From Oncomelania hupensis (Eukaryota > Mollusca > Gastropoda > Littorinimorpha > Pomatiopsidae), in assembly GCA_036898135.1 (NCBI GenBank), contig CM072513.1, positions 90,191,225 through 90,255,224 of the forward strand: a DNA stretch of 64,000 nt, given 5' to 3'. Under the pieces are notes generated by a model, which was not told where the DNA came from, did not search any database, and saw only the letters and a list, made by a program, of their open reading frames with translations. Each line of letters begins with the position of its first letter. The stretch's first letter is position 1. Below, one piece after another: positions 1-55,365 of this stretch. The position numbers and the translations under genes were made by a program.

Positions 1-911
1 AAAGGCACGGCAGCTGCAGTGAAGTGCCATCTCGCAGGACCCAAACGCGAGGGAACAAGCCAGTTTCCACTAAACAGACCAACTTGACGCTAGCCGAGTG
101 TCAGAGCTCTATCAAGCATAGGCTGTGTGTAGGCTTATGCCCTCAACAACCTCTGACCCTCAGGTTGGGGTCAGCGTCGCTTTTGGGCCGACTGCCTCTA
201 TAACCTTATTATCAGCCCGAAAGCGGCAATCGGTCTGTTATTTAACAAGGTCTAGATTATACAACTTCAGGGGATACAACGCGGGTGTGTAGGACACCAA
301 TGATATACGTTTCTCGCCTAAAGCGATGGAGCTGGAGTGTATTGACAGAATCATCAATATTATCCTTAGTTGATGCTGTCCTCCAGAGCAAGAGAGAATG
401 ATAAAAAAGGTGTATCCCCCCCCCCTTTTCTGTCTGTACTGTCAATGGTTTGAATCTGTGGATTTGTGCCATAAATACAGATGGTTGTTTTGCCGTGTTC
501 TCAGCTCGTCAATGTATCAGCTGGGCTCGCTGAAAATCAAGAGACCGATTTTCCAAAGCGTAAGAAGACACCTGAATGAAGTCTTCAGGAAAAAAACATC
601 TTCATGCGAAAACTATACCCACAGTTCGGCTGGTCGTAACTGAGATTGGAAAGGAAACTGAAATTTTTGAAGGAGAATTCATTGCTTAAAATAGTTGTTA
701 AATCTATAGTCGCAGTCTTGGTAGTTTTGAACAAGGTAAAAATACGACCTTGTAGCTGAGGAAGACAATGGCGGTAGCATTCGGGGCCAAACTCTCGGGT
801 GCAAATAAAAGTCAAGATAAAAGCATTCCTTCTTTAGGAGCCTATAATAGATCTACTCCATACGGGGAACGGGACATGCTATTAACCCTTTCAACAACAA
901 TCTTTACCAAC
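1..911. other. XDH intron 12 and beyond, no recognised gene
   Basis: No further xanthine dehydrogenase exon could be found left of the donor at 911, so the gene must continue beyond base 1. The stretch holds ordinary non-coding sequence with a C11 run near 416-426. Short open frames on both strands show no family resemblance. Confidence 0.6.
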
Positions 912-1766
912 CTGCTTAGAGAATGGGATGGAAACGGACAGCAGGATCTCTGTAGGCTTCAAGGAGGTTCTCCGATAGCCAGTGAAGAAGCTGGAATCCA
1001 TCACAACATCACGAACATCGCCTTCTGAAATAACAGGGTTGGATTGGATGAGAGGTCTTCTAGTTTGTGCAAGCACGCATTCCATGGCACGGGTTTTAAA
1101 GATCCTGAGGCTCATGTGCCAGACGGGTGAGTGCCGGCTACACCAGCAAGCACTAGGTCCCTCCCTTCTCTCCCACATCGTTCAGGATTATGCCCAGTTG
1201 TCTGGGATGTCTGTGGAAGCACCTAGTGCAACAAGTGGGCGCCTTGGGCTGTCTGAGTTAGATCCTTTATCAGCCAGCGTCTTGAGCAGCTATATACAAA
1301 AACATTAGAACTAAGGAGCAAGTCTGAGAATGTCCCTTCAATGTCAGTGTTGGTCATGTCAGTCAGGTAGGTTGTCAATCCAGTCACCAGTCACTCAAGT
1401 TACCCTTCCAGTCAGTCAGGTTGTCCACCAGCCAAAGAGGTTCACGTTATTTTACCTGTGTTGATGACTCGCAAGACCGCCCCACAGGCCAAGAAAAGAG
1501 GGTTGAGATCAGAGATTGGGCTTGCAGTCATGATGTTGCCTCCCAAGCCCTGCGAACAGATAGGACAACGATTGAATCTTAGGTATAGTTTAACGCACTA
1601 GGTCTCCGATTATTTTATAATTCTTTGTTGGTATGTTGCTGGCTGTCTATTTATTTATTTATTTATTTATTTATATGTTTATTTATTTATTTATTTTTTT
1701 GTTCATTTATTTACTTATTTTATTTATTTATTTATTTATTTATTATTAGTAATACTCTTTTTATTC

Positions 1767-1801
<35 letters not shown>

Positions 1802-1835
1802 CTTCTTCTTCTTCTTATTATTATTATTATTAAAA

Positions 1836-1905
<70 letters not shown>

Positions 1906-3665
1906 GCAACATTTCGGATTTGGTCCCCTGCAAACCAGCGCAGCATCTCCACCACTGCTGCAAACACTCGAGTTTTATGTTCTGTAACATCAAACAGTTC
2001 CACCAATTAATCAATCGATCGATAAATCACTCAATCAATCCAAAGTCCTGAGCAGCTCTTGAGCTGAAAAGGCACTAAGTACACGACCTACTAAATCAAT
2101 GAATAAATATATAGACTAAATTACATTTTCTCCCACGCTGTGAAAAGGTCTCACTCACCAGGTAGATCGTCCATCGCTTTCTTCAGGACGTCGTTCAGGG
2201 TTGACAAAGTGATAGAAGCGCCGAATCGGAAACAGCTTTTTCCCTGCTGCACTACCAGTAGTTCAGGAACATGCGTGACCGCCACTATCACAGGATAGTT
2301 CTGCTTCTTGAATTTAGTCTCGATTCCTGAAAAAACAAAAGTCGGAAAACCACTGGAAATGATGCATAATGCAGTCTTGTATAGCGCGACGTTCAATGAC
2401 AAGAGACATGTTCAATAGGCATACAGAATAAGAACGATTGCGACCCCAAAGAGCAGATATGTTGTATTCTTCAGATAATGTTCCAAATCTGGAAAACAGA
2501 CAAACAATATTAGGTGTGAGATCTTTATTCTGTATAAATTTTGAAATTGGTACTAAACCTACGTTTAAACCATGTACGCTAAGCTGACGTCCAACACTAA
2601 CTAGCGCATTTCTCTTCTGACGTTTAGCACATAAAACGTAATCCACGTGCATCTGTGAAACCAATGATATATGATAGCCGTAAGATTCACCTATGTTGCC
2701 AGAGAGAATAAGATGTCTCTTAACATACAATACCTATTTCAGGGGCATAAGAATGATAAGACGTCTGTTAAGATACAATACCTATTTCTGTGTTGCCAAT
2801 GACGAACTTGCAGTTTGGATGAGTCCTCTTGATATTGAGCAGTTCTCTCAGTGACGTAGGTCTATACCACGTGACCCTTTCGTTCCTGAACTCCAAGGAC
2901 TGGCTGTGCAGTTGTATCCCTTCCGTCTGGGACAAATAGTTTAACATCATAGTGTTATAGATTACACAAAGATACATGCCTGTTGTGTAACATTTGTTAA
3001 CATTGAAGAAATTATAGGCAAATATCCATACGTCCTATGCCTACAGTTTATAACCAATGAATTATCCATGCACATGCTAGACCTAATACTATTACCAATA
3101 ATAAAACTGGATGATATACACGCGCTTTCCCCCCAAATTAACCCAACCAGATGAGGTGCTACAGAAGACTTCTGGGCATTTCCTATACTCATCACATCAC
3201 CAACAACGAAGTCCGACAGACAATCACACAAGCCATTGGACAACACGATGACATGCTCACAGTAGAGAAGAAACGGAAAATCCGTTGGTATGGCCACGTC
3301 ACCAGAGCATCAGGCCTTGCAAAGACCATCATGCAAGGCACGGTACAAGGAGGCAGAAAAAGAATGAGACAGAAAAAGAGGTGGGAGAACAACATTCGAG
3401 AATGGACTGGCTTGACACTGAGCGAAGCCATGAGGGTTGCTGAGGACAGAGAAAGATGGAGTACGCTTGTTAAACGATCATCTGTGGTGCCACAACGACT
3501 TTCGAGTTACGGGACAGGAAAGGATAGGAACCCAACGCTCAAAGCGTTGCGATCTGAAAACAACGTAAAACCCAGCTTACAAAGACCGTCGACCGCTGAC
3601 TGGCGTCTATGCTGCGTCGTTGCTTAATATACTAACGACGACCTGTCAGGGTGAAGGACTAAAAT

Positions 3666-3719
<54 letters not shown>

Positions 3720-4752
3720 GGGTGGATGACAACAGACAAACACACGGACAGAGGCAGGCACAAACACAGATATAGACCTTAAAAAAAAAAAAAAAAAAAA
3801 AGTCATCCATGAAATGCATCACCGTATTCTACTCCATAAACCAATTTCGTACACATGAATAGGTTTACCTTCAAGAAAGGTGGGAAAATGGGTTCCTGGG
3901 TCGGATCGTAGAGGGAGTGCTCCGGACTGTCGCCATTGTGTTGCCCATTTGAACCGTTCATTCCGTTAACGATGCCGTTTGTACCGTTGGTCCCGTTCGT
4001 TCCATTAGCAACGCCGTTCCTGTTCATACAGCAGTTATCTCCCATGCCGCACCCTCTCTAGTCCAGAAAGAAAGAAAGAAGAACATTAAGTTCCTTTACC
4101 GAGTTGTTGATTCCAACTATCAGTCTGCTGTTTAGCAAGTTGCTTCCCTTTGATCGTATGAAATTCCGTGGCTAGAGAGAGAGAGAGAGAGAGAGAGAGA
4201 GGGCGAGAGCGCGCATTACCATAGTAACCTTACCGCACCTATCTAAATGTACATTGTCGCATGATCTCTAAACGCTGGAGCCGGCCTCCATGTTGTTTGC
4301 ACCTTGTTCTGATGTGGCTATGGAATAAAATACTTCCTCAGTTAAACCTGAGGCAGTTCTGTTATGTTGTGGGTGTTTGATCTACCCAAACGCTGCCTAC
4401 ATCCGGTAACAATATGTAACCCAAACAGAACATTTCCGGTAGGGGGGCGAACTTTTGTCATTTAGGTACGAGACTTCACAGACCACCGTAGGTTTTCTTC
4501 GCGATCCGGTTACTCCGGTTTCTTTCCTCCTTTCAGTAATATTGGATGCAGTCTATTTTTTAAAAAATTCAAAGAATAAAATTTGATTTCCTTTCCGTCT
4601 AATAATAACGACTTGCCTTTTACACCACATGTTTGAGTGATGAATGTTGTGTTTGTTGTATGTAGGAATGTCTGTAACATGTGAGCGTATATGTTGGTTA
4701 CAGATCTCCGCGCTTGGAGTCTGATTTAGGACCAAGGCGCGCGTACAGCATC

Positions 4753-10475: not shown

Positions 10476-12249
10476 GAGGCTATTACTCGATTTTTCATCA
10501 ATCGAACTTTAAGCTCGGCGATCTGAAGAGATCGCTATTACAGAAGTTGGAATATAAACCTATTTAATTTTTGACATTTTTAGATTAACTGTATCTAATA
10601 CCATCATTGAAGGGAGGGAGGAAACCGGAGAACCCAGAGAAAACACTCGGTGTCCTGAAAACTTGTACCTAAGTCAGGTAAATTCGTCCCACGCTGGGTT
10701 CGAAACCGCGACTTTCGACATAGGAAACCAGCTCACTATCAATTATGCTACAAGGCCACCCCGTTATAAGTTGGTAACGTTAGTAGATGTTAACGTTATA
10801 AGTTGGTAACGTTAGTAGCTGATAACGTTAGAAGTTGATAACGTTAGTAGATGTTAACGTTATAAGTTGGTAACGTTAGTAGCTGATAACGTTATAAGTT
10901 GATAACGTTAGTAGATGTTAACGTTATAAGTTGGTAACGTTAGTAGCTGATAACGTTAGAAGTTGATAACGTTAGTAGATGTTAACGTTAGAAGTTGGTA
11001 ACGTTCGTAGATGTTAACGTTAGAAGTTGGTAACGTTAGTAGCTGATAACTTTAGAAGTTGATAACGTTAGTAGATGTTAACGATAGAAGTTGTTGACGT
11101 TAGTAGATGTTAACGTTAGACGTTGATAACGTTAGTAGCTGATAACGTTAGAAGTTGATAACGTTAGTAGACGTTAACGTTAGAAGTTGATAACGTTAGT
11201 AGCTGATGATGTTAGAAGTTAATAACGTTAGAAGTTGATAACGTTAGTAGATGTTAGCGTTAGAAGTTGATAACGTTAGAAGTTGGTAACGTTAGTAGAT
11301 GTTAATGTTAGAAGTTGATAACGCTAGTAGCTGATAACGTTAAAAGTTGGTAACGTTAGTAGCTGATAACGTTAGAAGTTAATAACGTTAGAAGTTGATA
11401 ACGTTAGTAGATGTTAACGTTAAAAGTTGATAACGTTGGAAGTTGGTAACGTTAGTAGATGTTAATGTTAGAAGTTGATAACGTTAGTAGCTGATAACGT
11501 TAGAAGTTGATAACGTTAGTAGATGTTAACGTTTGAAGTTGGTAACGTTAGTAGGTGTTAACGTTAGAAATTGATAACGTTAGTAGCTGATAACATTAGA
11601 AGTTGATAACGTTAGTAGATGTTAACGTTAGAAGTTGATAACGTTAGACGTTGATAACGTTATAAGTTGATAACGTTATAAGTTGATAACGTTTTAAGTT
11701 GATAACGTTAGAAGATGATAACGCTAGAAGATGATAACGTTATAAGTTGATAACGTTAGAAGTTAATAACATTAGAAGATGACAAAGTTAGAGGATTATA
11801 AAGTTAGAAGATGATAACTTTTGAAGATGATAAAGTTTGAAGTTGATAACGTTAGAAGATGATAACTTTAGAAGATGATAACGTAGACGTTGATAACGTT
11901 AGAAGATGATAGGTAGTAGCTTGAATAACTCATTTCGTCTTCAATTTACCAGAGATTTCATAAAGGGATCCATTATAAAAAGTCTCTGACTTTACCAGTC
12001 TTGTGATCATGCCTTTTGTGTGGAAGACCAAGAAAAAGAAGTAGCAAAATGAAAATTTCAAATTGCATTGCATATTTTTTGGGGTGGTAAATCAACGCTA
12101 CACAATTCCGAGGTCCTAACATTATACAGTCATAAACTGGCTTCTGCGGCTTACCCGTCGACCAACATCTAGACGTGAATCCAGATCAAGAGTAGTCGAT
12201 GTCGACGATGACGACAACGATGGCGACGACAACGAAAAAGAGGATGATA

Positions 12250-16515: not shown

Positions 16516-16966
16516 TCGCTTTCTCCCGTACAAATCGAAATCCACGAATCACCGATCGGGTGTTGAAGCGTTTTTAAGTGTGAGAAAACGGAGTAAGCTA
16601 TAACTATCGGTTTCCTCAACGCTGTTGAAACGGTCTGCGTTAATATAGAACTCGCATCGGCACAAGCGTTCTCGTTGAAACCGATCGCCGAGGATCCTGG
16701 TCCCGATCGTTGAACGGTATACGTCTCCCCTTATTATGGGCAGAGTGTGATTGTGGCTTTTTTTTGCTGACTATTGCATTAGTGTGTTGTATTGTAACAA
16801 GCAGAACAGGCGAGTGTGTTAAATTATAATTGTTCCCTTATGTAAGGCTATACTTTGGTAATGGAATACAATCACTGATTGAAATGAAATGCAATACATT
16901 GCGAAACTTATGTTAGCAAACTAAATATTACAAGCATGGTGTGCACGTTCCTTATTTTGACCCCTA

Positions 16967-17438
16967 TCCTATCCCGTAGCTCAAAGGTCGTTGGGGCACC
17001 ACAGATGATCGTTTAACCAGCGTACTCCATCTTTCTCTGTTTTCAGCAACCCTCATGGCTTCGCTCAGTGTCAATCCAGTCCATTCTCGAAAGTTGTCCT
17101 CCCACCTCTTTTTCGGTCTCCCTCTTCTTCTGCCTCCTTGCACCGTTCCTTGCAGGATAGTTTTTGCAAGGCCTGATGCTCTGGTGACGTGGCCATACCA
17201 TCGGAGTTTCCGTTTGTTCACGATTGTGAGCATGTCATCGCGTTGTCCAATGGTTTGTGTGATGGTCTGTTGGACTTCGTCGTTGGTGATGTGTTGGGTA
17301 TAGAAATTGCCCAGAAGTCTTCTGTAGCACCTCATCTCCATGCTTTGTATTCTTCGTTGTAGATCTGCTGTGAGGGTCCATGTTTCGCAAGCGTATAGGA
17401 AGATGGAGATGACAAGGGAACGCAGCAGCCTTACTAAC
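16967..17438 (-). mobile_element. LINE family L, 3' fragment
   Basis: Minus-strand open frame (16964-17341) with [45 protein letters not shown] and [16 protein letters not shown]. On the plus strand its 3' end reads CCTATCCTATCCCGTAGCTC, the GGATA-type tail. 5' truncated. Confidence 0.92.
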
Positions 17439-18585: not shown

Positions 18586-19382
<797 letters not shown>

Positions 19383-21384: not shown

Positions 21385-21739
21385 AATCCCTCAACACAGT
21401 GCAGAGCTTCAACTATTTAGGAGCCATTATAACAGACAATGGGACCCTACAGGAAGTCCTCTCCAGGATCGAACAAACAGCTGCCCTGGCAAGGTTGAAG
21501 CCCATTTAGGAAAGACAAGACCATCAGTGTACAGATCTACAACGAAGAATACAAAGCATGGAGATGAGGTGCTACAGAAGACCTCTGGGCATTTCCTATA
21601 CCCAACACATCACCAACGACGAAATCCGACAGACCCATCACACAAGCCATTGGACAACACGATGGCCTGCTCACAGTGGTGAAGAAACAGACACTCAGAT
21701 GGTATGGCCACGTCACCAGATCATCAGGCCATAGATATA

Positions 21740-22117
21740 CAGGGTGTTCCAAAAGTCTTGGGCACATTTGAAGTCCCCATATCTCAATTACTATGAATGA
21801 TAGTAAGATAAAAGTTGTGCCATTTTAAAGCTAATTACATTAAGTTTTTTGTAAAGCTGTTGATTTTTTAAATTTCTTTTCAGACCCATTAATGGCGTTC
21901 ACTCAACCAGAAAATGCTGGGACGCGTTTGGCAAGAATGTGACTATCGGCTTGATGTGTGTCGTGTGACCAATGGTGCTCACATTGAACATCTTTGAACA
22001 TTCCATGTAAAAATTGAGATTACAAGCTTTCTGAATTTACCAAATACGTTTTTATATCCTTAATAGTTTCGGAAATATTCAATGTCAAAATGTGCCCAAG
22101 ACTTTTGGAACACCCTG
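21740..22117. mobile_element. Mariner-type MITE inside the P element's left end
   Basis: 378 bp with inverted ends CAGGGTGTTCCAAAAGTCTT / AAGACTTTTGGAACACCCTG and TA on both sides. A second copy in opposite orientation is at 37343-37718. No coding capacity. It separates the outermost bases of the P element's left repeat from the rest. Confidence 0.92.
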
Positions 22118-23374
22118 TATATAGACAGGATCGCTGACTAAACCTACGACCAAATATGTTTCGAAAACCGGAAGTACACGGACTTAGAAGGTCATTCACT
22201 TCCGCCACGTCGTGTGCATCATTCAAGATGCCTGGTTCATATTGCTGTATGCCTGGATGCAGTGTAAGTTCAGCAAGATGTTCAACACTCATATCTTTCC
22301 ACAACTTACCACAAGGAAAAGAAGATGCCGATTGGAGAGCTGCTCTGATTCACAGAATCAACCGCGCCGACACGCTTTTCAATCCAAAGCACGCGAAGAT
22401 CTGTTCACGACATTTTGAAGGGACGTGCTTCAAAACCGGTATGTACAAGTTTGGTTATAATAATATATTTGTACAAATCAACACACCAAAAAAGGGTGGG
22501 GGCAAGTAATAGTATAGAAACGGTGCCTGTCATTGAATAAATTAAGGGGGAACAAATCCAACAGCAGATCAGTAGCTCACTAGCTGAGAGTGAGTAGGCC
22601 TACAATCTCAATAAATAATAATTCATACACTCACAGTCACACTGTGACACTGTCATTGATTATGCAACTGTAGCTTTATTGTGATATCATGCTCAGTGGT
22701 AGTACTTAGAAATTCTATTTCTAATCTTGTTTAGGTTCCTGTTTGACTTTGACTGAATTTAAAATTTCAATAATCAGGGAATATTCAGTGATTCACAGCT
22801 AGGGTAGTGACATACGTCATATGTTACCATTGGTTGTAATCTTGATCTAACTGTATCATGTAAGTTATTTTATTTAGTCCAAATGTAAGGCACTGTACTA
22901 TTTCGTGTCCACCCTGTTACTTGTTTGTTCAACATTAATAGTATTAGTAGTACTTTACTTACACTCCAAGATCAGTAAAGATGGCCATTTGATTCAATAT
23001 TCATGCAAGTGCGAAGCAAAAATTATGACAATGTTATTCAGATAACAAGGTATAGAAATACCTCCATATTGTAAGCAATAGGCTTATGCCACAACTAAGA
23101 TTATATTTATATAAATGCATATATATGAGTTTTCAACATTTCTTTTATTGTCCTATTTCTAGGGTCTATTCACACTTTTCTGCTATCCTATGCACCAACG
23201 GGAATCCCCTCTATGAAAAATACTTCCGGTTTTTTTTCTCCGCGTGTTTTAGTGAGTTATTTCCAAATATTCAAGAATAATAACATGTGTCACTGGCCAC
23301 CTGTATCGTACCCTCACATATTTTTATTTTTTTTTTGCTGCAGTTTATTATCCCTTTCTATCGCCAGTGGCGCG

Positions 23375-23545
23375 ACTAAACCCTACCTACCTAACATTAT
23401 TTGTGAATTTTTTAAAAATATTCGGAAAAACATAACGCCCAGATGCTGGCTTGAACCCACACCTGTCAGGCGCCATTGGTTTCTGGCTTGTGGACAAGGC
23501 AAGTTAGTCCCGCCTTAGCCCACTTGGCCACAACGCTAGCCTAAC
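23375..23545 (-). mobile_element. tRNA-derived SINE in transposase intron
   Basis: On the minus strand GGCTAGCGTTGTGGCCAAGT and GGGCTAAGGC give an A-box-like head, and GTGTGGGTTCAAGCC gives a B-box-like segment. It differs from family S in the body. It lies in the intron between transposase exons 1 and 2. Confidence 0.65.
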
Positions 23546-24359
23546 ATAGTCAGTTACTTCGTGTTTTGTGAAGGTTGCGACGGCGAAGCTATGAAAAACT
23601 ACAAGAGTTTTCAGGTCCTGTTTCACTTTCTGTCGATGATCGACGCACCCCGAAGTAGCCACAAATACAGGCCTCTACGATTGTTTTTTGCATTCTTTCA
23701 CTGAGCATGTACTTCCTCCACCGTTTTTATATTTATTCCACTCGTTTTCTGGCTCTAACAATCGTCGTTTTCGGCAATTTGCCATATTTAAAAGTCACGC
23801 ATCAAGCTTTGATAAAAGCAAAACAAGCCAAACCGGAACTTGGTTTCATATAACCTCGTTTTAATTTATAATGGCGATACCCACGAGTTTTTATGAGAGG
23901 TGCCGGAAAGTTGTGAATGGGCAGGCGAAAACTTATCCCAGGAAGCCTGCCAACCAACCATGTGCAACAGAGGTCAATAGAGACCGTTAAGACTCCAGCA
24001 AGAAAAACCCCAGTGAGTAAAGTTGCTGAAACGCTATTTTTTTCCACTTCTTATTGTGTTTGGGGCTTCACCTGTACATTTCCTCCCTTGCAAAACCACT
24101 TCAGACACATTTTAAAACCCATTGTATGATTGTTTGTTTGCGTTTTTGTTCCTCGAAAGTAATATTAAAAATACCACTGATAGTGAAATGTACATGATAT
24201 AGCACGAACCTCCCAGTCCCACCCTCCTCCCTCCCAAAAAACAAAATGCATGACTATTACAATCAGACAGAAAAAAAAAGCATGACTATTACAATCAGAC
24301 AGAAAAAAAAAGTCATAAAAACTTTGCCTACTAATAGACACATCTCCTGTTTAGCATGT

Positions 24360-24800
24360 TTCAAAGCATCAAGTCCTGGGAATAATAATTGATGATGAAT
24401 TTAGGTGGCAAGGCCATATTGATGTTGTCTGTAAGAAGGTCTCACAAAACTTATTCTAGCTCAGTCACTATGTTGACACTAACGCTAGAAGAATTTTATG
24501 TTCATGCACATATATTATCTCATAATAGTAATAATCGTATTAATTATTCCTTAAGTATTTGGTGTGGTGCCTCAGAAATATTACTTTTTAGGAACTAAAA
24601 CCTACGGTGACCGTTCATTTTCTCTCTGTGCATCCACTGTTTGGAGTTCTCTACCTTCCGACCTCAGACACTGCCATCCAAGCCTCCTTCAAGCACGCAC
24701 TCAAAACCTATCTGTTCAGAAAATTTCTCAACTAACCACCCAGCGATCTGCTATCACACTCACACCCCATCTCCTAGTGTGCAAGCGTGCGTGGGTGTAT
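24360..24800 (+). mobile_element. LINE C-terminal fragment in transposase intron 2
   Basis: Encodes LGIIIDDEFRWQGHID-VCKKVSQN and NYSLSIWCGASEILL, then after a deletion TYGDRSFSLCASTVWSSLP and SDLRHC. These are segments of a LINE reverse transcriptase C-terminus. A GT-rich tail follows at 24784-24840, only about 25 bp before the acceptor of transposase exon 3. Confidence 0.8.
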
Positions 24801-27199
24801 ATATGTGTGAGTGTGTGTTTGTGTGTGTGTGTGGGTTTGTTGATTTGCTCTCCATTCTGTTACAGGTCAGTCGTACCCCACCTTCTGTTCCTGATTTTGT
24901 GTGTTACTACAACTTCGAAGAAATCAGACAGGACACCCTTAAGCTTGCTGCACCATGGTGTCTCTTAGAAAACAGCAAGGACCGGGTCCAAGTGGGGGTG
25001 ACGGAGGCCAGCCAAGTAAAGCTGAGGGTCATCATCTTCCCAGACTTTACTCTTCAGGTGATTGTGTTTGGATTTGAGGCATCTACTGCTCGGTCAAACA
25101 TTGAGTGTGTGTCTTTGAACAATTTCTTACTGGACTTACAGGAAAGACGATTGTGCCCTGGTGTCACTGAAGACAGCCTTCAGAAGTATGCGGATTTGCC
25201 GTCAGGAGACAATCCTGTGTATTTTAAGCATATTCTCAGTTATAGCCAAACCAGCAGCAATATCTCTTGTATATCTTGTGTTCGATCAAGGAGCTGTATT
25301 TTTGTTTTGAATGATATATCATCCATTACGTGTGTTCATTGTAAATATGCACATGGTCTCTTGTTAAAAAAAAACAGCAGCGAGCTTCACAAAGTGTGCT
25401 ACGCCCCATCAGCAAACATGAGCCATTGACTTCAGCATCCAAAGAAAATTTGTCGGCAGCACTAAAAACTGCTAGGAAACGCGAACGCGCGTTACAGGAA
25501 GAAGTTAAAAAGTTTACGCAGGAGTTGTCTGTGGCAAAGGAAACTGTGGAGGTTGAGAATTCTCTCCACAACAGCCTGAAAGATGTGGTGAGCAAAACAA
25601 CACTTGAGGAGCCATTGACAAAGTTGTTCTGGGCAGAACAGCTGAAAGCCTTCAACAAAAAAAATCGTGGCATGCGATGGCATCCACTGATAATAAGGCT
25701 TGCCATCTTAATTCACAGTCGTAGTCCTGCAGTATATGAGACTTTAAGACAGACGGGCATCCTGAAGCTGCCCGGAGAATCTACCCTGCGAGACTATACA
25801 AACGTTTTTGGGCCAAAGGATGGATTCAACAAACAAGCTCTGGAAGAACTTGTTCGACAAGCAAAGGACCTGAAAGATGAGGAGCGTTTTGTTGTTCTCC
25901 TACATGATGAAATGTCCATTCGAGCAGACCTTGTTTTTGACCAACGAATAAATCAGGTGGTGGGTTTCGTCAACCGGGACAAGTGGATCAATGACATAGG
26001 AAATAATCTTGCAACGCATGTTCTAGTTTTTTACGTTGTAGGCATCAACTCGAATATCAAGATGAGCCTCGGATTCTTCGGAACTTGCACAGCAACAGCA
26101 GGTGACATGTTTCCTCTACTGTGGAAGGCTGTCAAATATCTGGAGAACTACTGCAACCTGAAGGTCATAGCATCAACAAGCGACAAAGCTTCTTCAAACC
26201 AGAAACTGTGCAGCATGCACCAAAATGCCAGAATTGAAAACATATGCTACAAGGCGCTCAACATATGTCCTCCGAACAGGTTTCTGTATTTTATCTCAGA
26301 CCCTCCTCATTTGATCAAGACTGTTCGCAACAATATGAGCAACTCTGGATCTGGCAAGAAAACCAACCATCTGTGGTGCAACGGACATGAACTTCTGTGG
26401 CAACATGTGAGGAACTTGTACAATGTTGACTCTCAAACAGAACTGCGTCGCACCAAACTGACAGAGAGTCATGTGAATCTGACAAGTTCGTCAGTGATGA
26501 ATGTCAAGCTTGCAGCTCAAGTTTTCAGTAAATCTGTAGGAACGATGATGAGAATTCATGGTGGCGCGGATGCTGCAGAAACGGCAACATTTATTCTCTT
26601 AATGGACCGTTTCTTTGACTGTTTAAATGTACGGTCACAGGTGGAGGGGATGCAGAAGAGGAAAACAGACCTGAACCCATATACACATGAAGATGACACA
26701 AGGTTCACCTTTTTGCAGGAAGAGTTCCTTGGATATTTATTTATTTATTTAATCGTTCTTATATTTGCAGCTATGGAAGCAGAGTGTTGATGCCAGACCT
26801 GGACCCTTCACCCAGCAAGAGAGAAGTAAGATGTGCCTGACCCACCAGACTTTCAAAGGACTCTTCATGACTGTCAAGTCATTTTGTGAAGCCACGCAGT
26901 ACCTTTTGAGACATGGCGTTCCTCAAGTGCTCAGCAACGTGTTCTGCCAGGATCCCATGGAAGAGCATTTTGGTAGACACCGGGGCCTTGGACGTCGCTG
27001 TGACAACCCGAATAATGCTGGCCTTTGGCTACCAAGAAATCAGGATCCGGATTCAGCGTAGTCTTGCTCTGCAGCTACAGCCGAAAGGAAACATTGAGTG
27101 GAGGCCTGCACTGGTGATCATGTCAACAAGTCCACTAAAAAAAATTCAGAGGAGGCAATGATGCGAATAAATTGATTATGGGTAGACATGTAACTGAAT

Positions 27200-29180
27200 C
27201 AGTGCATGGTTCAGTATAATTATTTTGCCTACAAAAAGGTACTACAACTGTACTGTAAGTGTAACCTGTGTGTCATATACTTTAATTAGTCTTACACATC
27301 AACAAATATCCAACATCAAAATACTGCTTAAGAAGACAATATATATAGTCTATACAGGATTCGATTTTGGGCAGCGGCCCGCGTCAATTGACGCATCATA
27401 TCTGAAAGTGACGCACTGTACGGCGTAGTTGTAGGTCAGTTGACGCATTGTTCCACGATATCGGTGCGTCCAACTTTCGTGTCGTTTTCCTTAGCCACCT
27501 ACCTTTTGTTTCCGATCGATCTCTGGGAATGAAAGCATCGTCTGCTATAACAAGGGAAGTAATTCTACCCGCAGTAGTCCGATCCCCTGACTGTGATTGG
27601 ATTAAGCAGAATACATTTAATCCAACGTTGGTTCTTCTTCTTTCTTGGGTCATAAACTAACAGGTACTTCAATAGAATATTTTGTTTATTTATTTGTTTG
27701 TTTATTTATTTTATTTGTTTCGCCTATGCTTAAAAAATGCATTTATAAATATTAATGTTATTATTTGAACAATAATTATAAGTATTGAGCACATTGTTAA
27801 ATTTTTGACGTTGCGCCCACTTGGATATTAGGGGTCCATTGATTTCAGGGTCGAGGGGGCAATTGGCCCATACAATTTTTTAACTTGGTTGAACCATATA
27901 TATATATTGAGTGGATAACGTTTTCGTGATTAGTGTTTTATTTAGGATTTATATATCAAGCGATGAACTTGCATGATTCGGTATATTTTGAATGCTGAAA
28001 GCAGTGATCATGTTGGCTAAGGGACTGAACCCTCTTTAGTTTATATTTGATTTTGTGACAGTGAATTAATTTTAAATGTCAATATTATACACACACACAT
28101 ATTATGTTGTATATCATTATGACTCACATGTTTCTCGAGATCACTGCAGGGTTTTTTGGTTGCCCTTTGCTCTGTTAGTCAATGTATATGCTGGAACGTT
28201 ACACATACAGTTCAGTTGTAATAGTTATTTGAAGGCGATTAAATTAAAAGTCCTTAATCGCTTGATTTTGATTATCACTGTGTTGCTATTATCACTGTGC
28301 TGCTAGTACTATAAGTATTTAAGTCAAATTGTTTTTATTACTTATTAGTACAGTTATTATTTATTGTTATTATTATCTTTATCAAGGTTACTATGCTGAT
28401 AGTGATTGAATGTTGCAGTTGTGGCAATGTAGCAGAGCTTATGTGTGGGCGGTGGCGATGGGGATGTTTGCCACTTGTAACTGTAAGGAAAAAACCAAAT
28501 AAAGATATAAAAATACAGCCACACCTTAGATACTTTGGCTGGTCTCTGTTTTTATTCTTAAAAGATCGCACCTGGGATATAAGTCAAAACAAAGTAAGAA
28601 CTAGGCCAACACTGTGATATAAGCATTCAACTGTGCCGTGGGCACATTATTACAGTATGGTGTTAAAGATGAGCATGCAGGTCACTTTTAAAGATGGTGT
28701 GGTGTTTGAGTACACAATTTTTGCGTGGCTGCGAATTGTATTATACTGTTGTACATGGCTCAAAACCATTTTCTGGCGATACTTGCTCATTGGGACAGTA
28801 TTCTTGTTCGATGTTCGGCATCTAATAGTATTTCACTCACACTAGTTAATCATCAAGTACAAATCATTTCTGAATTCACTAAGCTCATGAAAAGATTTTA
28901 GTAAACTGTACATAGATTTTGACGCCAAATGTAAATATAAGAGGAAGGAAAGAATGAGATGGCAAAAGAGTTCAGTTGAATTTATTGTTTTAATTCTGTG
29001 AAACATTGTAAGCCATTTGTTTGCACCTTTTGTGTTTCTGTGTGAGTGCACGTGATGATATACTGAATACCAAGAGAGTAATTAACATAGCATTGTGATT
29101 GTGCTTTATTTTCAGTAATATTATTCACACAAATGAAGACAAATAATAAAACATGAATTGGTAAGATTTATTTTGTCGCC
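27200..29180. other. Gene-free centre of the P-type transposon
   Basis: About 2 kb of AT-rich sequence between the 3' ends of the two converging genes. No open frame resembling a known protein and no strong repeat was found. Confidence 0.6.
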
Positions 29181-29181
29181 T

Positions 29182-31788
29182 TTACACTTTTCCAGTGTCA
29201 CTGGGTCGCAACCTCTTCCTCATGCTCTTTTCCTTCCAGCCTCGCTGCACTTTATCCATCATTACCTTGAGCTTGTGATGAACTCTGATTTTGAAAAAAA
29301 GCATGACAGCATTTTCAAACACATCTTCTTGCACTTTTAAAGAGATGTCAAAATTGTACATGGTGTCAAAAAAGCACACTGGCACTGACTCACTGCTTAA
29401 ACACAGGTGAAAAAAACTCCTTGTCACTAGCTTGCACATTGACAGAGCCTGCTCCACCCACAGCCTCGCGAAAAATGTCCTCCATGTCAAGGAACATTTG
29501 AAGAATGTTGTCCTTGACAAATGTCAGTCCACCTCTGTTCATGGCAGTGGTCATGTCAGTGGAACTTGAAGCTTCTCCACTCTCGAATGAGTCGCTGAAG
29601 CACAACGCATCTATACATTTGAACTTTTCCTCCCTGTAAGGATTTTTCTTCAGTGCCCAAACGCGCTTCTTAAGCTTTTTTTATCACACTACCAGCAACA
29701 TAGCCGATTATATCTTTTTCTTTGTCACTGACTTCAAACGGTTGCCTTGCATTTTGACGCTGGCATCCATACGCCATTTCAACTAACTTTTCAAATAGCT
29801 TCAAGCTAATCATGGCTGTAGCATGGGCAGACTGTGTTAGTTCTGTAACACTTTCATGATTTGCACAGTATGTTTCATAGTACTTGGTGAACGCCTTCTC
29901 CTTGGCAGCATTGCGCAGTTTCCCTCGTGGTCCAAGGCTATCATTGAACACTTGCAGGCTGTCTTATGCAGTTTCCCTCGTGGTCCAAGGCAATCATTGA
30001 ACACTTGCAGCCTGTCTTGAAGAACAGCACCTGCAAAACAGACATACGTATGTACATGTATACACTCAATAAATCAAATGGATATAAATTATATGTTATT
30101 GCTCAGAGCTGGCATGTATATGGGTATACCTATACCTGAGAAAAATTAATCTCACTTACCTTGTAAAAAACAAGTAAATTTTTTTTTCAATCAAACTACA
30201 CATAAAAATATATACAGGCCTCATCAATTAATTTTTTTCAAAAATTTAATCGCCCAGAGAAAATGTTACTAGCGCATAGTTTTTGCAGATACATCATAAT
30301 GTATATTCCTGTTTGTGTTTTTAATGTTATTTCACTAATTGGTTTTAAAATAATATTTTGCTGACTACACATGTGGGGCTGTTGTTTAGGCGTAGGCTTA
30401 CGAGTTACATAAAAAAGAAGAAAAAAAAAACATGCCCAACGGATTAGTGACTTTTAAAATTTACTAGTCAGGCACATTTTTTGCTCGCCTGGGGCAATCG
30501 GGCGAGTGGATTTGGCGAGCCCTGATATATAAAAAGCCAGTTTGGCAAATTACACTGAGAGAGCTTTCAGTAAGTGAAGTACATCTTTAATGATAGCACT
30601 ACTCCATCTATTATTAATAATTATATTACTGAAAACGTACATTCCAAGGTCTTGACGAGGGAACGCAGCTCAGTCGTCAGGCATTCATCTTCAGCGATCT
30701 CACTGCAAACCTCTTCCAAAAGCAGAATTGTCACCTGTAGATATTTCAAAAAACATGTAGACACCCTAACAGATCATGCATTGGGAGTGTATTATTTGGA
30801 AAATATATTGCGTTTGAAAACAAAACACTATATTTATATAATATATTAACAGACTAGCACAAAATGTAAAAGGAGACCTGCTAATTTGTGCTATAAATCT
30901 GCTATCTCCAAGGGGTATTCTGTAAGATTCTTATTAATTAAGCATCATGCATCATACGTTCCTACAGCAGGAAAAAAAGAACGCAGGTGCAGTTGTAAGA
31001 ACTAAAATTCACACACAAAAACAAACTAATTCATTCCTTGAAGTATACCATTAAAGTGTGTAAGGATTCATTTCTCACCTTTGGGAAAACTGGAAATTGG
31101 GGATGAGATCCTTGTGGCTGTGATGGGGTTTCATCAACAAACAATGTTGAGCTAGCTTCCTGAAACAAATTAATCAGTTGATAATGAAAACAGTTGTGTT
31201 GTGTTAAGCAGTGCACTGTTGCATTAAATAAATGATCACCAATGAACTGCACAATAAAAAGTCTTGCTCTCTTCATTCAATGTTTTGTGTTTTTGTAACA
31301 CTAAACTTCTAAATAATCAATTTAAAAACAAAAAGTGCAAGAGCTCTCCTCTTCTTTGAACAGCTACATCAGTAGACTACTATGAAACACTCAATCAGCC
31401 CACAATGACACACTAATACAACGTGCAATGCAACGTGTTTCATACTGTAAGTAAAAGTGAACTGGAAAATTTACCACAACTTTTTCATTTTAATTAAATC
31501 TTATAACTTCAAGAACTGACAATCTTTTACGCAAGTTACGCCAATAAAGAAAAGGAACAATTTTTTTTCTGATCGACTGATACAGTGATGGCGGCCGATC
31601 AAAATACACAAGCATGAATCGATCGCTTCACTCTGTGCTCCCATAGGCATAAAGTTATAAAATACATGTGTTTAAGTATGTCATTAATTGTATACATCTA
31701 CATAAACCATAGTTCGTTTGGGACTGGTCATTTTTTCACTCACCTCTGCTACTGCAATCACCTCTGAGAATTCTGCTGTCTCCATCAT
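29182..31788 (-). pseudogene. Second P-transposon gene, unknown function, frame-broken
   Basis: A spliced gene starting 122 bp inside the right end. Exons are 31744-31788 (MMETAEFSEVIAVAE), 31079-31159 (EASSTLFVDETPSQPQ and QFPVFPK) and 30641-30734 (VTILLLEEVCSEIAEDE), then a long last exon from about 30045 to 29182. GT/AG and phases fit for the first three introns. The last exon encodes KEKAFTKYYETYCANHES, KDIIGYVAGSVIKK, STDMTTAMNRGGLTFVKD and a basic end with FFKIRVHHKLKVMMDK. Frame breaks are a 53-bp tandem duplication (29915-30020), a 7-base T run at 29676-29682 and a 7-base A run at 29410-29416 (plus strand). The GYVAG-VIKK and NRGGL spacing recalls C-terminal parts of P- and hAT-like transposases, so it may be an accessory transposition protein; this is inference. 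I do not recognise the family. Confidence 0.75.
29915..30020. repeat. 53-bp tandem duplication in the accessory gene
   Basis: CAGTTTCCCTCGTGGTCCAA through GAACACTTGCAG is present twice with a period of 53 bp. As 53 is not a multiple of three it shifts the reading frame of the minus-strand gene. Confidence 0.88.
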
Positions 31789-32120
31789 GTTGAAAACATA
31801 CAACCGGAAGTAATCGCGCTTCGAAATGACGCGCATTAGCCACGACGCAAGTTCAATACACAGACAAAGAGCATGACCCCGCTCTGTCAGCGATCCTGTC
31901 TATATATATGATCAGGCCTTGCAAAGACCATCCTGCAAGGCACAATGCAAGGAGGTAGAAGAAGAGGGAGACCTAAAAAGAGGTGGGAGGACAACTTTCG
32001 AGAATGGACTGGTTTGACACTGAGCGAAGCCATGAGGGTTGATGAGGACAGAAAAAGATGTAGTACGCTGGTTAAACGATCATCTGTGGTGCCCCAACGA
32101 CCTCCGAGTTACGGGATATG

Positions 32121-33245: not shown

Positions 33246-33687
33246 AATCACTATGTCTACTCACAGTTTTGAAGACGTTTCCTGTTCCACTTTGAATGAC
33301 CTGACTTCTCGCTTCACAGACGTATTTCAAAGAACGACCGCATTATTGTATTTCTTACGAAATCCACAAATCTAGATGGCGAATAGGTAAAGTATAGGGG
33401 CGCAATCCCAATATAGTGCTATTTTCTACTAAATAGGCCTAGTGGTCAAACTGTCAAATGTAGTGTTGATGAACCATACGCAAAATCGCGCACACCATTT
33501 CTCTCACTTTCGACTCGATTGTGAATGTCCAAATTACTTTTATTTGAAATTTGAAGTCGCGTTATAGTTGGCAACTGTTGCGGGTTTAGCAATTTACAGT
33601 TCGTGAGGATGCACTTGTTAACTGAATTATTCAAAATTAATAGTAAAACCTAAAGGTCATCAACACTGGTGAATCTCGCTAGTCCTA

Positions 33688-33868
33688 TCCTATCCTATCC
33701 TTACCCGTAACTCGGAAGTTGTTGGGGCACCACAGATGATCGTTCAACCAGCGTACTCCATCTTTCCCTGTCCTCAGCAACCCTGATGGCTTCGCTCAGT
33801 GTCAAGCCAGTCCATTCTCGAATGTTGTCCTCCCACCTCTTTTTCGGTCTCCCTCTTCTTCTACCTCC
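33688..33868 (-). mobile_element. LINE family L, 3' end only
   Basis: CCTATCCTATCCTTACCCGT tail, then the complement of [20 protein letters not shown]. Cut off at 33868 by AATCCTGTG and a GA array. Confidence 0.88.
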
Positions 33869-36235: not shown

Positions 36236-36490
36236 TATTCCTATCTTATCCTATCCTATCCCGTAACTCGAAAGTCGTTGGGGCACCACAGATGATCGTT
36301 TAACCAGCGTACTCCATCTTTCTCTTTCCTCAGCAACCCTCATGGCTTCGCTCAGTGTCAAGCCAGTTCACTCTCTCTTTTTCTGTCTCCCTCTTCTTCT
36401 GCTTCCTTGCACCGTGCCTTGCAGGATGGTTTTTGCCAGGCCTGATGCTCTGGGGACGTGGCCATACCATCGGAGTTTCCGTTTCTTCTA
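36236..36490 (-). mobile_element. LINE family L, 3' end
   Basis: CCTATCTTATCCTATCCTAT tail followed by complement of the [16 protein letters not shown] region, ending near CGGAGTTTCCGTTTCTTC. A small deletion removes part of KKRWEDNIR. Confidence 0.88.
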
Positions 36491-36724: not shown

Positions 36725-37815
36725 TAACTTATAGAGATAATGCTGCGCATGATGTTAATCTGTATCATTTCAATTATTTTAGTTTTAAAGAATTAGGACA
36801 GTTGACTAATTATAAAATGTGGATTTGTTTAGTATTTCTTCACTTGTGGATTTGATGCCTAGGGAGAGTTGCAACGTTGCTTGGAGATTTGTGAAATAAT
36901 GAAATGAAAAACTGTTTGTCTTATTTAATATTTTGGTGATTCATCATTTGTATCGGTGCTTAGTGAAATTGAGTGAGTGACGACTCTTTATAGGATTCAG
37001 AATTTTTAGTAGCCGATTAGAAAATGACTATAAAATGTAAGCACTATGAATTGTTTTTTATGCGACAGGGTTCGGGCTGAGGGGGTGAAAAGAATAAAGA
37101 TTAATTCAACACTTTCAATACTTTGTTCTTCATTGATTCACGCACAGGTGACAGTAACACGCCTGGAACACAACATTTACCAAAACACACAATTTCACTA
37201 AGCTCCGATACTAATAATGAATTATCACAATATTGAATAAGAAACATTTTTTAAATTTTATTATTTCACAAATCTCCAAGCAACACTGCAACTCTCCCTA
37301 GGCATCGAATCCACAACAAATACTACACCCATCAACATTATACAGGGTGTTCCAAAAGTCTTGGGCACATTTTGACATTGAATATTTCCGAAACTATTAA
37401 GGATATAAAAACGCATCTGGTAAATTCAGAAAGCTTGTAATCTAAATCTTTACATGGAATGTTCAAAGATGTTCAATGTGAGCACCATTGGTCACACGAC
37501 AAACGTCAAGCCGATAGTCAAATTCTTGCCAAACGCGTCCCAGCATTTTCTGGTTGAGTGAACGCCATTAATGGGTCTGAAAAGAACTTAAAAAATCAAC
37601 AGCTTTACAAAAAACTTAATGTAATTAGCTTAAAATGGCACAACTTTTATCTTACTACCATTCATAGTAATTGAGATATGGGAATTTCAAATGTGCCCAA
37701 GACTTTTGGAACACCCTTTATAATTATTCAACTGTCCTAGTTCTAAAAAAAAAACAACTAAAATAAATGAAGCGATACAGATTAACGTCACGCGCAGCAT
37801 TATTTCTATAAGTTA
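36725..37815. mobile_element. Long-inverted-repeat (fold-back) element
   Basis: The left arm, 36725 to about 36990, and right arm, about 37165-37815, are reverse complements with moderate divergence. The ends read TTAACTTATAGAGATAATGC and its near complement. Internal pairs include TCTCCAAGCAAC/GTTGCTTGGAGA and CACTAAGC/GCTTAGTG. The right arm is enlarged by the 376-bp MITE at 37343-37718. Without it the element is about 715 bp. No coding capacity. Confidence 0.88.
37343..37718. mobile_element. Mariner-type MITE, second copy
   Basis: Reverse-oriented relative of 21740-22117, flanked by TA at 37341-37342 and 37719-37720. The right terminus reads CACCCTT rather than CACCCTG. Confidence 0.92.
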
Positions 37816-44820: not shown

Positions 44821-44861
44821 CTTTAATTTATCATTATTTATTGCGGTTATTATTGTCAATC

Positions 44862-46170
44862 CTATCCTATCCCGTAACTCGAAGGTCGTTGTGGTACACA
44901 GATGATCGTTTAACCCGCGTACTCCACCTTTATCTGTCCTCAGCAACCATCACGGCCTCGCTCAGTGTGAAGCCAGCCTATTCTCGAATTATGTCCTCCC
45001 ACGTCTTTTTCTGTTTCCCTCTTCTTCTGTCTCTTTGCAGAGACATTGGGCTGTTTAACACTTGTCAGCCGCTTCACAGTCTGGATAAGCCTTCTTGCTT
45101 TTGTTCTTGGTCAGACTGTTCTCTATTTTCTGGCATTGCCCTTCGATCCAGTTCTCCTTTGCTGTGCACATGCCTTTTCGGATGACATTGTTGATTTTTC
45201 GGTAGGCATCAGCTCCCTGTGAGGCGTTATTTTTCTTTTTCATCTCTCTTCGTTTATCACACAGGTCCAAAAGTTCAGGTGTGATTCACGTTTTCTTTCT
45301 TTGGGCGGTGCTTGCCAAGGACCTCAGTGGCGGCATCTGTCACAGCTGAGCTGAAGGTGGTGGTCATGGTGTTGACATCTACTCAAAGATAATGGATGGT
45401 CATCCATTATCTTTGATCTACTTCACCAGCCCCGAAATGAGCAGTGGTGCACTCTTCCCTCCAATTGTAGCTTTAAATATCTCTGCCACCTAGCAACCTC
45501 TGGGTCTTGCAGTTTGTTCAGGTCGAACTTCAAGTGGAGCCGGAAGGACATCATAACGAGATCGTGGTCACTTCCGACGTATGCTCCTGGAAAAATGCGT
45601 ATCCTGCCAATTGTTGATGCTTGATCTGCAGCGTGTCTTGACCATGATGTAGTCAATCTGGTTGTGGTGCTCCCCGCTGGGACTGTGCCATGTCTATCGT
45701 CTGGATTTTTTGTGGAGACCAAGCGTGTTTGCCATTATCAGATTGTTTATCTGGCAGACTCCAAGAGTCAAAGACAAATGTCATTTGTCTCATCGTTGCA
45801 GTGGGATCCTCCCAGTTGTGGTGCGCATCTTGGCCAACCTTGGCATTCCAGCCACCTTCCACTATGACTATGTCCTTCTTCGGCACTTGGTCAAGGACAG
45901 CCTGTAGATGTTCATAGAAATCCTCCACTTCGCTGTCGTCATAGTCTGATGTTGGGGCATAGGCTAGGATGATGCTGAGTGATGTTGAAAGGGGCTGCTT
46001 TCAGACGGATAGTAATGAGTCTACTGGAGACTGGGCGGCTACCCATGACTGTGGCTAGAATATCTCTGTGCACCAAGAAACCAACGCCGTGTTCGTGCCT
46101 GTCATCTCTCCCGCTGGAAGAAAGCTTGTAGCCTTTGTCGGCCGTTGTTTCACCTAGACCTTTCCAGGCC
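44862..46170 (-). mobile_element. LINE family L with endonuclease region, RT deleted
   Basis: On the minus strand, 45653-45928 encodes part of an APE-type endonuclease: MEDFYEHLQAVLDQVPKKDI and GGWNAKVGQD. A frame-shifted GSDHDLVMMSFRLHLKFDL follows. At 45055-45270 is the linker CDKRREMKKKN, AKENWIEGQCQKIENSL and KSKKAYPDCEAAD. It then jumps directly to KKTWEDIIREWAGFTLSEAV and the GGATA tail near 44862. The reverse-transcriptase domain is missing. This copy shows that family L has the APE-endonuclease plus RT layout. Confidence 0.88.
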
Positions 46171-54846: not shown

Positions 54847-54849
54847 CAT

Positions 54850-55288
54850 CCATCTTCTTATACGCTTGCAAAACATGGACCCTTACAGCAGACCTACAAC
54901 GAAGAATACAAAGCATGGAGATGAGGTGCTACAGAAGACTTCTGGGCATTTCCTATACCCCGCACATCACCAACGACGAAGTCCGACAGATCATCACACA
55001 AGCCATTGGACAACACAATGACCTGCTTACAGTGGTGAAAAAACGGAAACTCTGATGGTATGGCCATGTCACCAGATCATGAGGTCTTGCAAAGACCATC
55101 CTGCAAGGCACAGTGCAAGGAGGTAGAAGAAGAGGGAGACCGAAAAAGAGGTGGGAGGACAACATTCGAGAATGGACTGGTTTGACACTGAGCGATGCCA
55201 TCAGGGTTGCCGAGGACAGGGAAAGATGGCGTACGCTTGTTAAACGGTCATCTGTGGTGCCCCTATGACCTCAGAGTTACGGGATAGG
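54850..55288 (+). mobile_element. LINE family L, 3' fragment, frame-broken
   Basis: From CATCTTCTTATACGCTTGCA, through ATGAGGTGCTACAGAAGACT, to CGGGATAGGATAGGATTACT. Stops interrupt the frame at 55054 and 55080. Confidence 0.9.
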
Positions 55289-55365
55289 ATAGGATTACTA
55301 TTATTATTATTAAAATTATTATTATTAAAATTATTTATACTATACTGCAAAATATACATTGAGTG

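Follow-up and report, generated by a model that had tools for sequence, protein, structure and literature searches.

We analysed a window of 64,000 nucleotides from the gastropod Oncomelania hupensis (GCA_036898135.1, contig CM072513.1, positions 90,191,225 to 90,255,224 of the forward strand) and found that it holds a P-superfamily DNA transposon with two converging genes at positions 21731-31910. We consider it likely, from sequence comparison, that this element is a broken copy of a two-gene P transposon whose transposase is split into a catalytic subunit, encoded by gene 1, and a separate protein, encoded by gene 2, that corresponds to the C-terminal domain (CTD) of the Drosophila P transposase. 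A two-gene P-superfamily transposon with converging genes had been proposed in an earlier reading of the window (the sequence-only reading), and this proposal is supported by the structure of the element, by three further copies and by 17 of 18 transposase families. That reading noticed neither that both genes are broken in the window copy nor that gene 2 is the CTD missing from gene 1.

The boundaries of the element, in window positions, are as follows.

21731..31910: element of the P superfamily, measuring 10,180 bp including its nested insertions; defined by matching ends, the target duplication and three further copies
22118..22138, plus strand: left terminal inverted repeat; its outer bases are at 21731-21739, pushed away by the nested insertion on the next line
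21740..22117: miniature inverted-repeat transposable element (MITE), 378 bp, with long inverted repeats, nested at a TA in the left end and foreign to the element
31886..31910, minus strand: right terminal inverted repeat
21723..21730: target-site duplication of 7 or 8 bp on the left side, ATCAGGCC; based on empty-site paralogues within the window
31911..31918: target-site duplication of 7 or 8 bp on the right side, ATCAGGCC

The sequence TATATAGACAGGATCGCTGAC occurs perfectly at 22118-22138 and inverted at 31886-31906, and the end-to-end match spans 24 bp after removal of the nested 378-bp MITE and one TA; excluding these, the element measures 9,800 bp. With up to 3 mismatches allowed, the 16-bp end motif recognized in the sequence-only reading has 3 sites, 2 of them exact, where 0.30 would be expected. 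The insertion can be seen directly, because empty host-repeat copies elsewhere in the window have the target site singly, for example within 18910-18960 (18741-19136 and others). In a second insertion, represented by loci L013 and L014, both ends start with CATAGATA and are flanked by the 7-bp duplication GTCTGAG. Applying these ends to the window copy yields the duplication ATCAGGC, also of 7 bp. The window element and the second insertion (L013) both show the short terminal inverted repeats and the 7-8 bp target duplication of the P superfamily. The matching ends, the target duplication and the 10.2-kb length given in the sequence-only reading were all recovered, the duplication being backed by the empty host-repeat copies; its proposed size of 8 bp is possible, but 7 bp fits both insertions. 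A second copy of the MITE, 96% identical and with identical inverted ends and TA sites, is present at 37339-37722; the MITE disrupts the left end of the element.

Between these ends lie the two genes.

22228..22438, plus strand: gene 1 exon 1, with start codon and THAP domain (PF05485, E = 4.1e-9); GT donor end read by eye
24866..27161, plus strand: gene 1 main exon, with RNase H domain and GTP-binding insertion; AG acceptor start read by eye
27166..27171, plus strand: gene 1 poly(A) signal AATAAA
31744..31788, minus strand: gene 2 exon 1, with start codon, 45 nt
31079..31159, minus strand: gene 2 exon 2, 81 nt
30641..30734, minus strand: gene 2 exon 3, 94 nt
29182..30030, minus strand: gene 2 exon 4, CTD-like, with motifs YVAGSVIKKL, NRGGL and FFKIR
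29167..29172, minus strand: gene 2 poly(A) signal AATAAA

Gene 1 has the hallmarks of a P-superfamily transposase, namely an RNase H domain interrupted by a GTP-binding insertion, three acidic catalytic residues and a THAP domain. Its main exon matches PF21787 (E = 7.5e-30) and PF21788 (E = 2.8e-18) and contains the motifs LLHDEM at 25897, STSDKAS at 26173 and DPMEEHFGR at 26951; the catalytic D, D and E do not vary across a 15-sequence alignment of relatives. The closest solved protein is the Drosophila P transposase (6p5a_A, E = 4.8e-16), and among the matches listed, the top-scoring named relatives are from the gastropods Biomphalaria, Littorina and Batillaria. In the window copy, tblastn matches to relatives reveal three frame changes between 24857 and 27152. 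The ATG at 22228 sits 117 bp inside the left end with the MITE excluded, close to the 100 bp estimated earlier. Gene 2 likewise begins, as the sequence-only reading had it, 122 bp inside the right end (ATG at 31788) and faces gene 1 on the minus strand. Its four exons are separated by three introns, all GT-AG and with consistent phases. In the window copy, exon 4 is interrupted by two frame breaks and, in addition, by a tandem duplication of 53 bp (29915-30018); the mended read-through is the natural reading of the other copies, barring single residues and a short stretch at the last frame break. A separate observation concerns L001, a 3981-bp contig filed as a Nitrosopumilus metagenome-assembled genome, which carries an animal-type CTD-less P transposase and an apparent retroelement integrase and is probably contamination.

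The Drosophila P transposase comprises six domains, the last of which is an all-helical CTD on a flexible, disordered linker; this CTD lies between the RNase H and the GTP-binding domain of another subunit and contacts both transposon and target DNA (PMC7776569, in part). PDB entry 6p5a lists it as a chain of its own, 6p5a_B. Gene 1 terminates with SPLKKIQRRQ and a stop, as its relatives do. All 52 listed relatives that reach the catalytic-glutamate motif end 55-85 residues from the motif start, mostly with an SPLKK-type tail (120 of the 223 relatives found were listed and 103 were not; 68 of the 120 were excluded as being without the motif by the pattern used). In the genome, all 30 loci examined hit a stop 66-88 residues from the catalytic motif; they belong to at least 62 matches to the relative P0001, 32 of which were not examined. 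The one-gene architecture of P and THAP9, in which a single polypeptide holds both catalytic core and CTD, was not found here.

As judged by motif and profile comparison, gene 2 is homologous to the CTD of the Drosophila P transposase. Its YVAGSVIKKL, NRGGL...MEDIF and FFKIR...K are colinear with YIAGYVIKKL, HGGL...LECIF and FKIR...K of the Drosophila CTD, and the three CTD blocks score 113 in gene 2, compared with maxima of 70 in 20,000 shuffles, 57 in 637 CTD-less pieces and 57 in 4218 six-frame chunks of the window. When the gene-2 proteins of nine families together with the stand-alone proteins P0127 and P0130 were aligned by hhalign with insect P CTDs, the probability was 95.2% and the E-value 2.6e-8 (89% and 2.3e-6 with fewer sequences). 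A more independent test was provided by a profile of P0127, P0129, P0130 and P0132, which includes no gene-2 letters. With this profile, the unmended gene-2 pieces rank 1-3 of 1628 open reading frames (ORFs) in the window, with E-values of 4.2e-7, 1.8e-6 and 0.0047, compared with 0.85 for the next window ORF and 3.5e-5 for the insect CTD P0123. The last protein search, for which the profile combined gene 2 with the Drosophila CTD, returned 12 proteins, including insect-type P CTDs and weak ones; one of them, P0121, is a gene-2 relative (66% identity over 54% of the query, E = 3.7e-44). Stand-alone CTD-like proteins are P0127 (E = 1.9e-8), P0129 (2.0e-4) and P0130 from Pinctada imbricata (3.3e-3). 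THAP9_C (PF22824) is placed on P0127, P0130 and P0132 in precomputed annotation, and a profile made of insect CTDs only reaches P0131 (E = 1.3e-4), P0130 (0.0016) and P0132 (0.0042). Another protein, P0128, consists of 149 residues in which a THAP domain is fused directly to a P CTD, like the product of an internally deleted P element.

The exact end motif occurs at eight places in the 1.45-Gb genome, namely the window pair, two same-contig pairs and single ends on contigs C2 and C6; at up to 2 mismatches there are 11 matches, and 3 for the reversed pattern. The two further pairs and the C2 site correspond to three loci, L013, L014 and L015, which are 95.8-97.6% identical to the window element in aligned blocks and span both genes. 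L013 and L014 have common flanks and represent one duplicated insertion, so that independent insertions carrying gene 2 number three (window, L013/L014 and L015). Whether copies with the same ends carry the minus-strand gene had been posed as a check in the sequence-only reading. L013 and L014 carry it whole inside their ends, exons 1-3 having kept their splice sites; in L015, exons 3-4 are present and exons 1-2 were not found, their expected stretch being N; and L016, the C6 site, is a bare 27-bp end with neither gene. Exon 4 of gene 2 is open from stop to stop over 278 (L013), 288 (L014) and 278 (L015) codons, and the main exon of gene 1 is open in L013 and has one frame break each in L014 and L015. 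Given that gene 2 codes for the CTD, which comes last in Drosophila P, one might suppose that an internal inversion in the window copy flipped the terminal exon of a normal, fused P transposase. We give this explanation almost no chance, as gene 1 finishes with a conserved end and stop of its own, gene 2 possesses a separate start codon, introns and a poly(A) signal, and the layout recurs in other copies and families; the last finding refutes an inversion peculiar to the window copy. As to the copies themselves, G000:C3:61614683-61623332 and 61978756-61987409 lie about 364 kb from each other, oppositely oriented and with the same flanks, suggesting an inverted segmental duplication. A 750-bp stretch of the first intron of gene 1 (23169-23918) is missing in L013, L014 and L015 and is probably an insertion private to the window copy, and 27173-27445 is missing in L013 and L014 and kept in L015.

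The gene pair extends well beyond these close copies. Clustering of the 30 transposase loci at 80% protein identity gave 18 families, whose representatives are 44-67% identical, and CTD profiles were searched against 1.5-kb flanks for the 30 loci, a further 4 kb for 15 families and a second piece for L039 and L032 (E-values computed on small frame sets of 60 to 3723). An opposite-strand CTD-like frame was found on the 3' side of the transposase in 17 of the 18 families; it lies roughly 0.9 to 5.3 kb away from that match, or about 7 kb away in L039.

CTD gene found in the flanks: window family (in its own element), L019/L020, L036/L037, L038, L044
CTD gene found in further downstream sequence: L021, L022, L024 (L020 again); L029, L031, L035, L045; L023, L034, L039, L040, L042

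L038 and L044 are weaker, being flank fragments only (E = 3.6e-14 and 3.2e-10 with the family profile, 0.0035 and 0.0015 with a profile free of genome letters), and the CTD frames of L029 and L034 are broken. Same-strand CTD frames reached a lowest E of 0.12 in the families searched, no upstream frame in the 1.5-kb flanks fell below E = 1, and none of 7086 reversed-frame controls fell below E = 0.5. The remaining family of the 18 (L032, L058, L063) has an open transposase and no CTD gene within about 10 kb; it could be a copy that lost gene 2 or a solo catalytic gene.

Both genes are, by their substitution patterns, constrained. Between L024 and L031, the proportions of silent (pS) and replacement (pN) differences are 0.78 and 0.19 in gene 2 (142 codons) and 0.78 and 0.20 in gene 1 (752 codons), that is, saturated silent sites with few replacements. 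Between L013 and L015, the ratio of replacement to silent rates (dN/dS) is 0.19 in gene 2 exon 4 (4 silent and 3 replacement changes) and 0.17 in the gene 1 main exon (5 and 3), all small numbers. Purifying selection on the minus-strand gene with dN/dS < 1, a further check named in the sequence-only reading, is borne out by these two comparisons. The window copy has higher ratios (0.53 and 0.91), a raised replacement rate being expected after inactivation, and L036 and L037 differ by 1 and 4 changes at equal rates, too few to tell. Moreover, the protein distance matrices of gene 1 and gene 2 are correlated across 10 of the 18 families (r = 0.766; 0 of 10,000 permutations as high). This test left out L038 and L044 (gene-2 fragments) and L023, L032, L034, L039, L040 and L042 (no gene 2 at that time), and used partial gene-2 pieces for L024, L029 and L036, with 61 aligned residues at the fewest. 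The trees of the two genes agree partly (L024 with L031 and L021; L035 with L036), with a weak node in gene 2. Stand-alone relatives in other animals (P0127 and P0130) would suit a passenger origin, in which gene 2 is a captured host gene or a fragment of another element. This origin is highly improbable, since the pair and its orientation recur across families at 44-67% transposase identity with correlated divergence, and the start of gene 2 is 122 bp away from the right end of the window element, the gene being enclosed by the ends in L013 and L014 as well. The second refuting condition of the sequence-only reading, a gene 2 that occurs alone as a host gene, was addressed at the 18 families sampled, 17 of which have the opposite-strand relative downstream.

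Several results weigh against a second gene that supplies the CTD. Profiles built from both families are needed to link gene 2 with the CTD. None of the 1153 candidates from the initial protein search with gene 2 was significant, the complete gene-2 read-through matched no family in a Pfam scan, and the matches of shorter stretches to PF12596 fall below its cut-off (E = 0.018-0.053). The insect-CTD-only profile misses gene 2 among the window ORFs, its best match lying elsewhere (E = 0.38) and a gene-2 piece coming second (E = 1.6). With the same profile, P0127, P0129 and P0121 score 0.21, 0.25 and 0.86, and CTD-less transposases score from 0.37, which places P0121 within their range. The local PF22824 model lists P0132 only (E = 7.1e-9), and not P0127 or P0130. 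A structural model of P0127 (predicted local distance difference test score 59) found no P-transposase match in the PDB, whereas an insect CTD control matched 6p5a_B (E = 6.3e-8). Gene 2 could accordingly be imagined as a real partner unrelated to the P CTD, the likeness being convergence among helical proteins, and the weak Pfam scores, the miss of the insect-only profile and the lack of a structural match for P0127 would fit. We regard such convergence as very unlikely in view of the three colinear motifs, the hhalign E-value of 2.6e-8, the block test and the precomputed THAP9_C annotation on stand-alone relatives. About 90 exon-4 residues before the CTD motif and the 73 codons of exons 1-3 are without a shown Drosophila CTD counterpart, and the role of gene 2 may therefore exceed that of the CTD. 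As for the families, the CTD gene of L039 is about 7 kb from the transposase, L032 is without one to about 10 kb downstream, and a search for the element ends of five other families found none. Outside the window family, adjacency and orientation are shown, not shared element boundaries.

If the transposase is split as we propose, the division would fall at the linker between the catalytic core and the CTD. Gene 1 would provide the catalytic subunit with its THAP DNA-binding domain, RNase H domain and GTP-binding insertion, and gene 2 would provide the CTD together with an N-terminal region of its own, which might dock the CTD. Both proteins would assemble on the element ends, where the gene-2 protein, a subunit acting in trans, would dock on the RNase H and GTP-binding domains and hold the DNA of transposon and target in the manner of the fused CTD, which would make both proteins necessary for transposition. 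We infer the physical complex, the requirement for transposition and the DNA contacts of the gene-2 protein from this correspondence. The main rival is that gene 2 encodes a regulator, a repressor or silencing antagonist derived from a transposase CTD, and that gene 1 transposes alone. The transposase gene of P elements is known to give rise to a truncated repressor (PMC7776569, in part), gene 2 has an extra N-terminal region, and one family is without a nearby gene 2. However, gene 1 and its examined relatives are without the CTD that in Drosophila touches transposon and target DNA, and the missing domain is supplied by gene 2 in 17 of 18 families, under constraint like that of gene 1; we hold a regulator to be unlikely. 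With less confidence than for the window element, we lean toward a broader reading of the split transposase, in which a whole animal lineage of P transposons would be obligately two-component, with a catalytic protein that never carries the CTD, a CTD made from a convergent gene, and assembly in trans before cutting.

By its catalytic core, THAP domain and ends, the element is assigned to the P superfamily; by its architecture, it is not a canonical P element. It resembles Drosophila P (87-kDa transposase, 6p5a) in the THAP domain, the RNase H domain with GTP-binding insertion, the acidic motifs, the short inverted repeats, the short target duplication and a CTD homologue encoded within the element. 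However, Drosophila P has one gene and one chain with all domains, whereas the CTD here is a separate gene on the opposite strand. The statement in the sequence-only reading that canonical P elements encode one protein is loose, since alternative splicing in Drosophila P also yields a truncated form of 66 kDa (PMC7776569, in part). THAP9 genes and zebrafish P-like transposons share the same catalytic architecture, and THAP9_C (PF22824) is annotated on the stand-alone gene-2 relatives, but their CTD is in one chain with the core in the excerpts available from PMC10983969. Galileo and its relatives also belong to the P superfamily and make 7-bp target duplications (PMC2775673, in part), fitting the copies here. 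They differ by unusually long inverted repeats (PMC3688188, in part), and the excerpts mention no second gene. The nearest analogue of the layout is found in RAG-like transposons, in which genes for a RAG1-like catalytic protein and a RAG2-like partner converge in one DNA transposon (PMC7204232, in part). Their transposase, however, is of a different family. To our knowledge, RAG2 is not a piece split from a RAG1-type transposase. No description of split or two-gene P elements was found in the open-access PMC literature (Repbase reports and subscription papers lie outside this scope).

The P element is a textbook transposon, and its transposase is a structural model treated as one chain. If true, a split transposase would offer a natural two-part enzyme for probing CTD function, would account for the truncated look of database P transposases from many invertebrates, and would join the RAG-like transposons as a second example of partner genes that converge. 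Transposition would also be open to natural regulation through the supply of the gene-2 protein. Annotation may well miss gene 2, because the Pfam models tried did not reach it.

Both start codons are located just inside the inverted repeats, and a CCGGAAG-type box is present upstream of each. One further feature is common to the two promoter-proximal ends.

22166..22176, plus strand, with the other copy at 31802-31812: AACCGGAAGTA, 11 bp, of putative function

AACCGGAAGTA is possibly a promoter or transposase site, serving expression or binding. The host repeat that carries the element resembles the 3' end of a long interspersed nuclear element reverse transcriptase, as judged by eye, and further copies are present at 3149-3529, 16963-17435, 18673-19199, 33686-33868, 36242-36489, 44859-45039 and 54849-55343. 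Elsewhere in the window, a tandem array of 36 copies of a 32-bp unit occupies 10762-11911.

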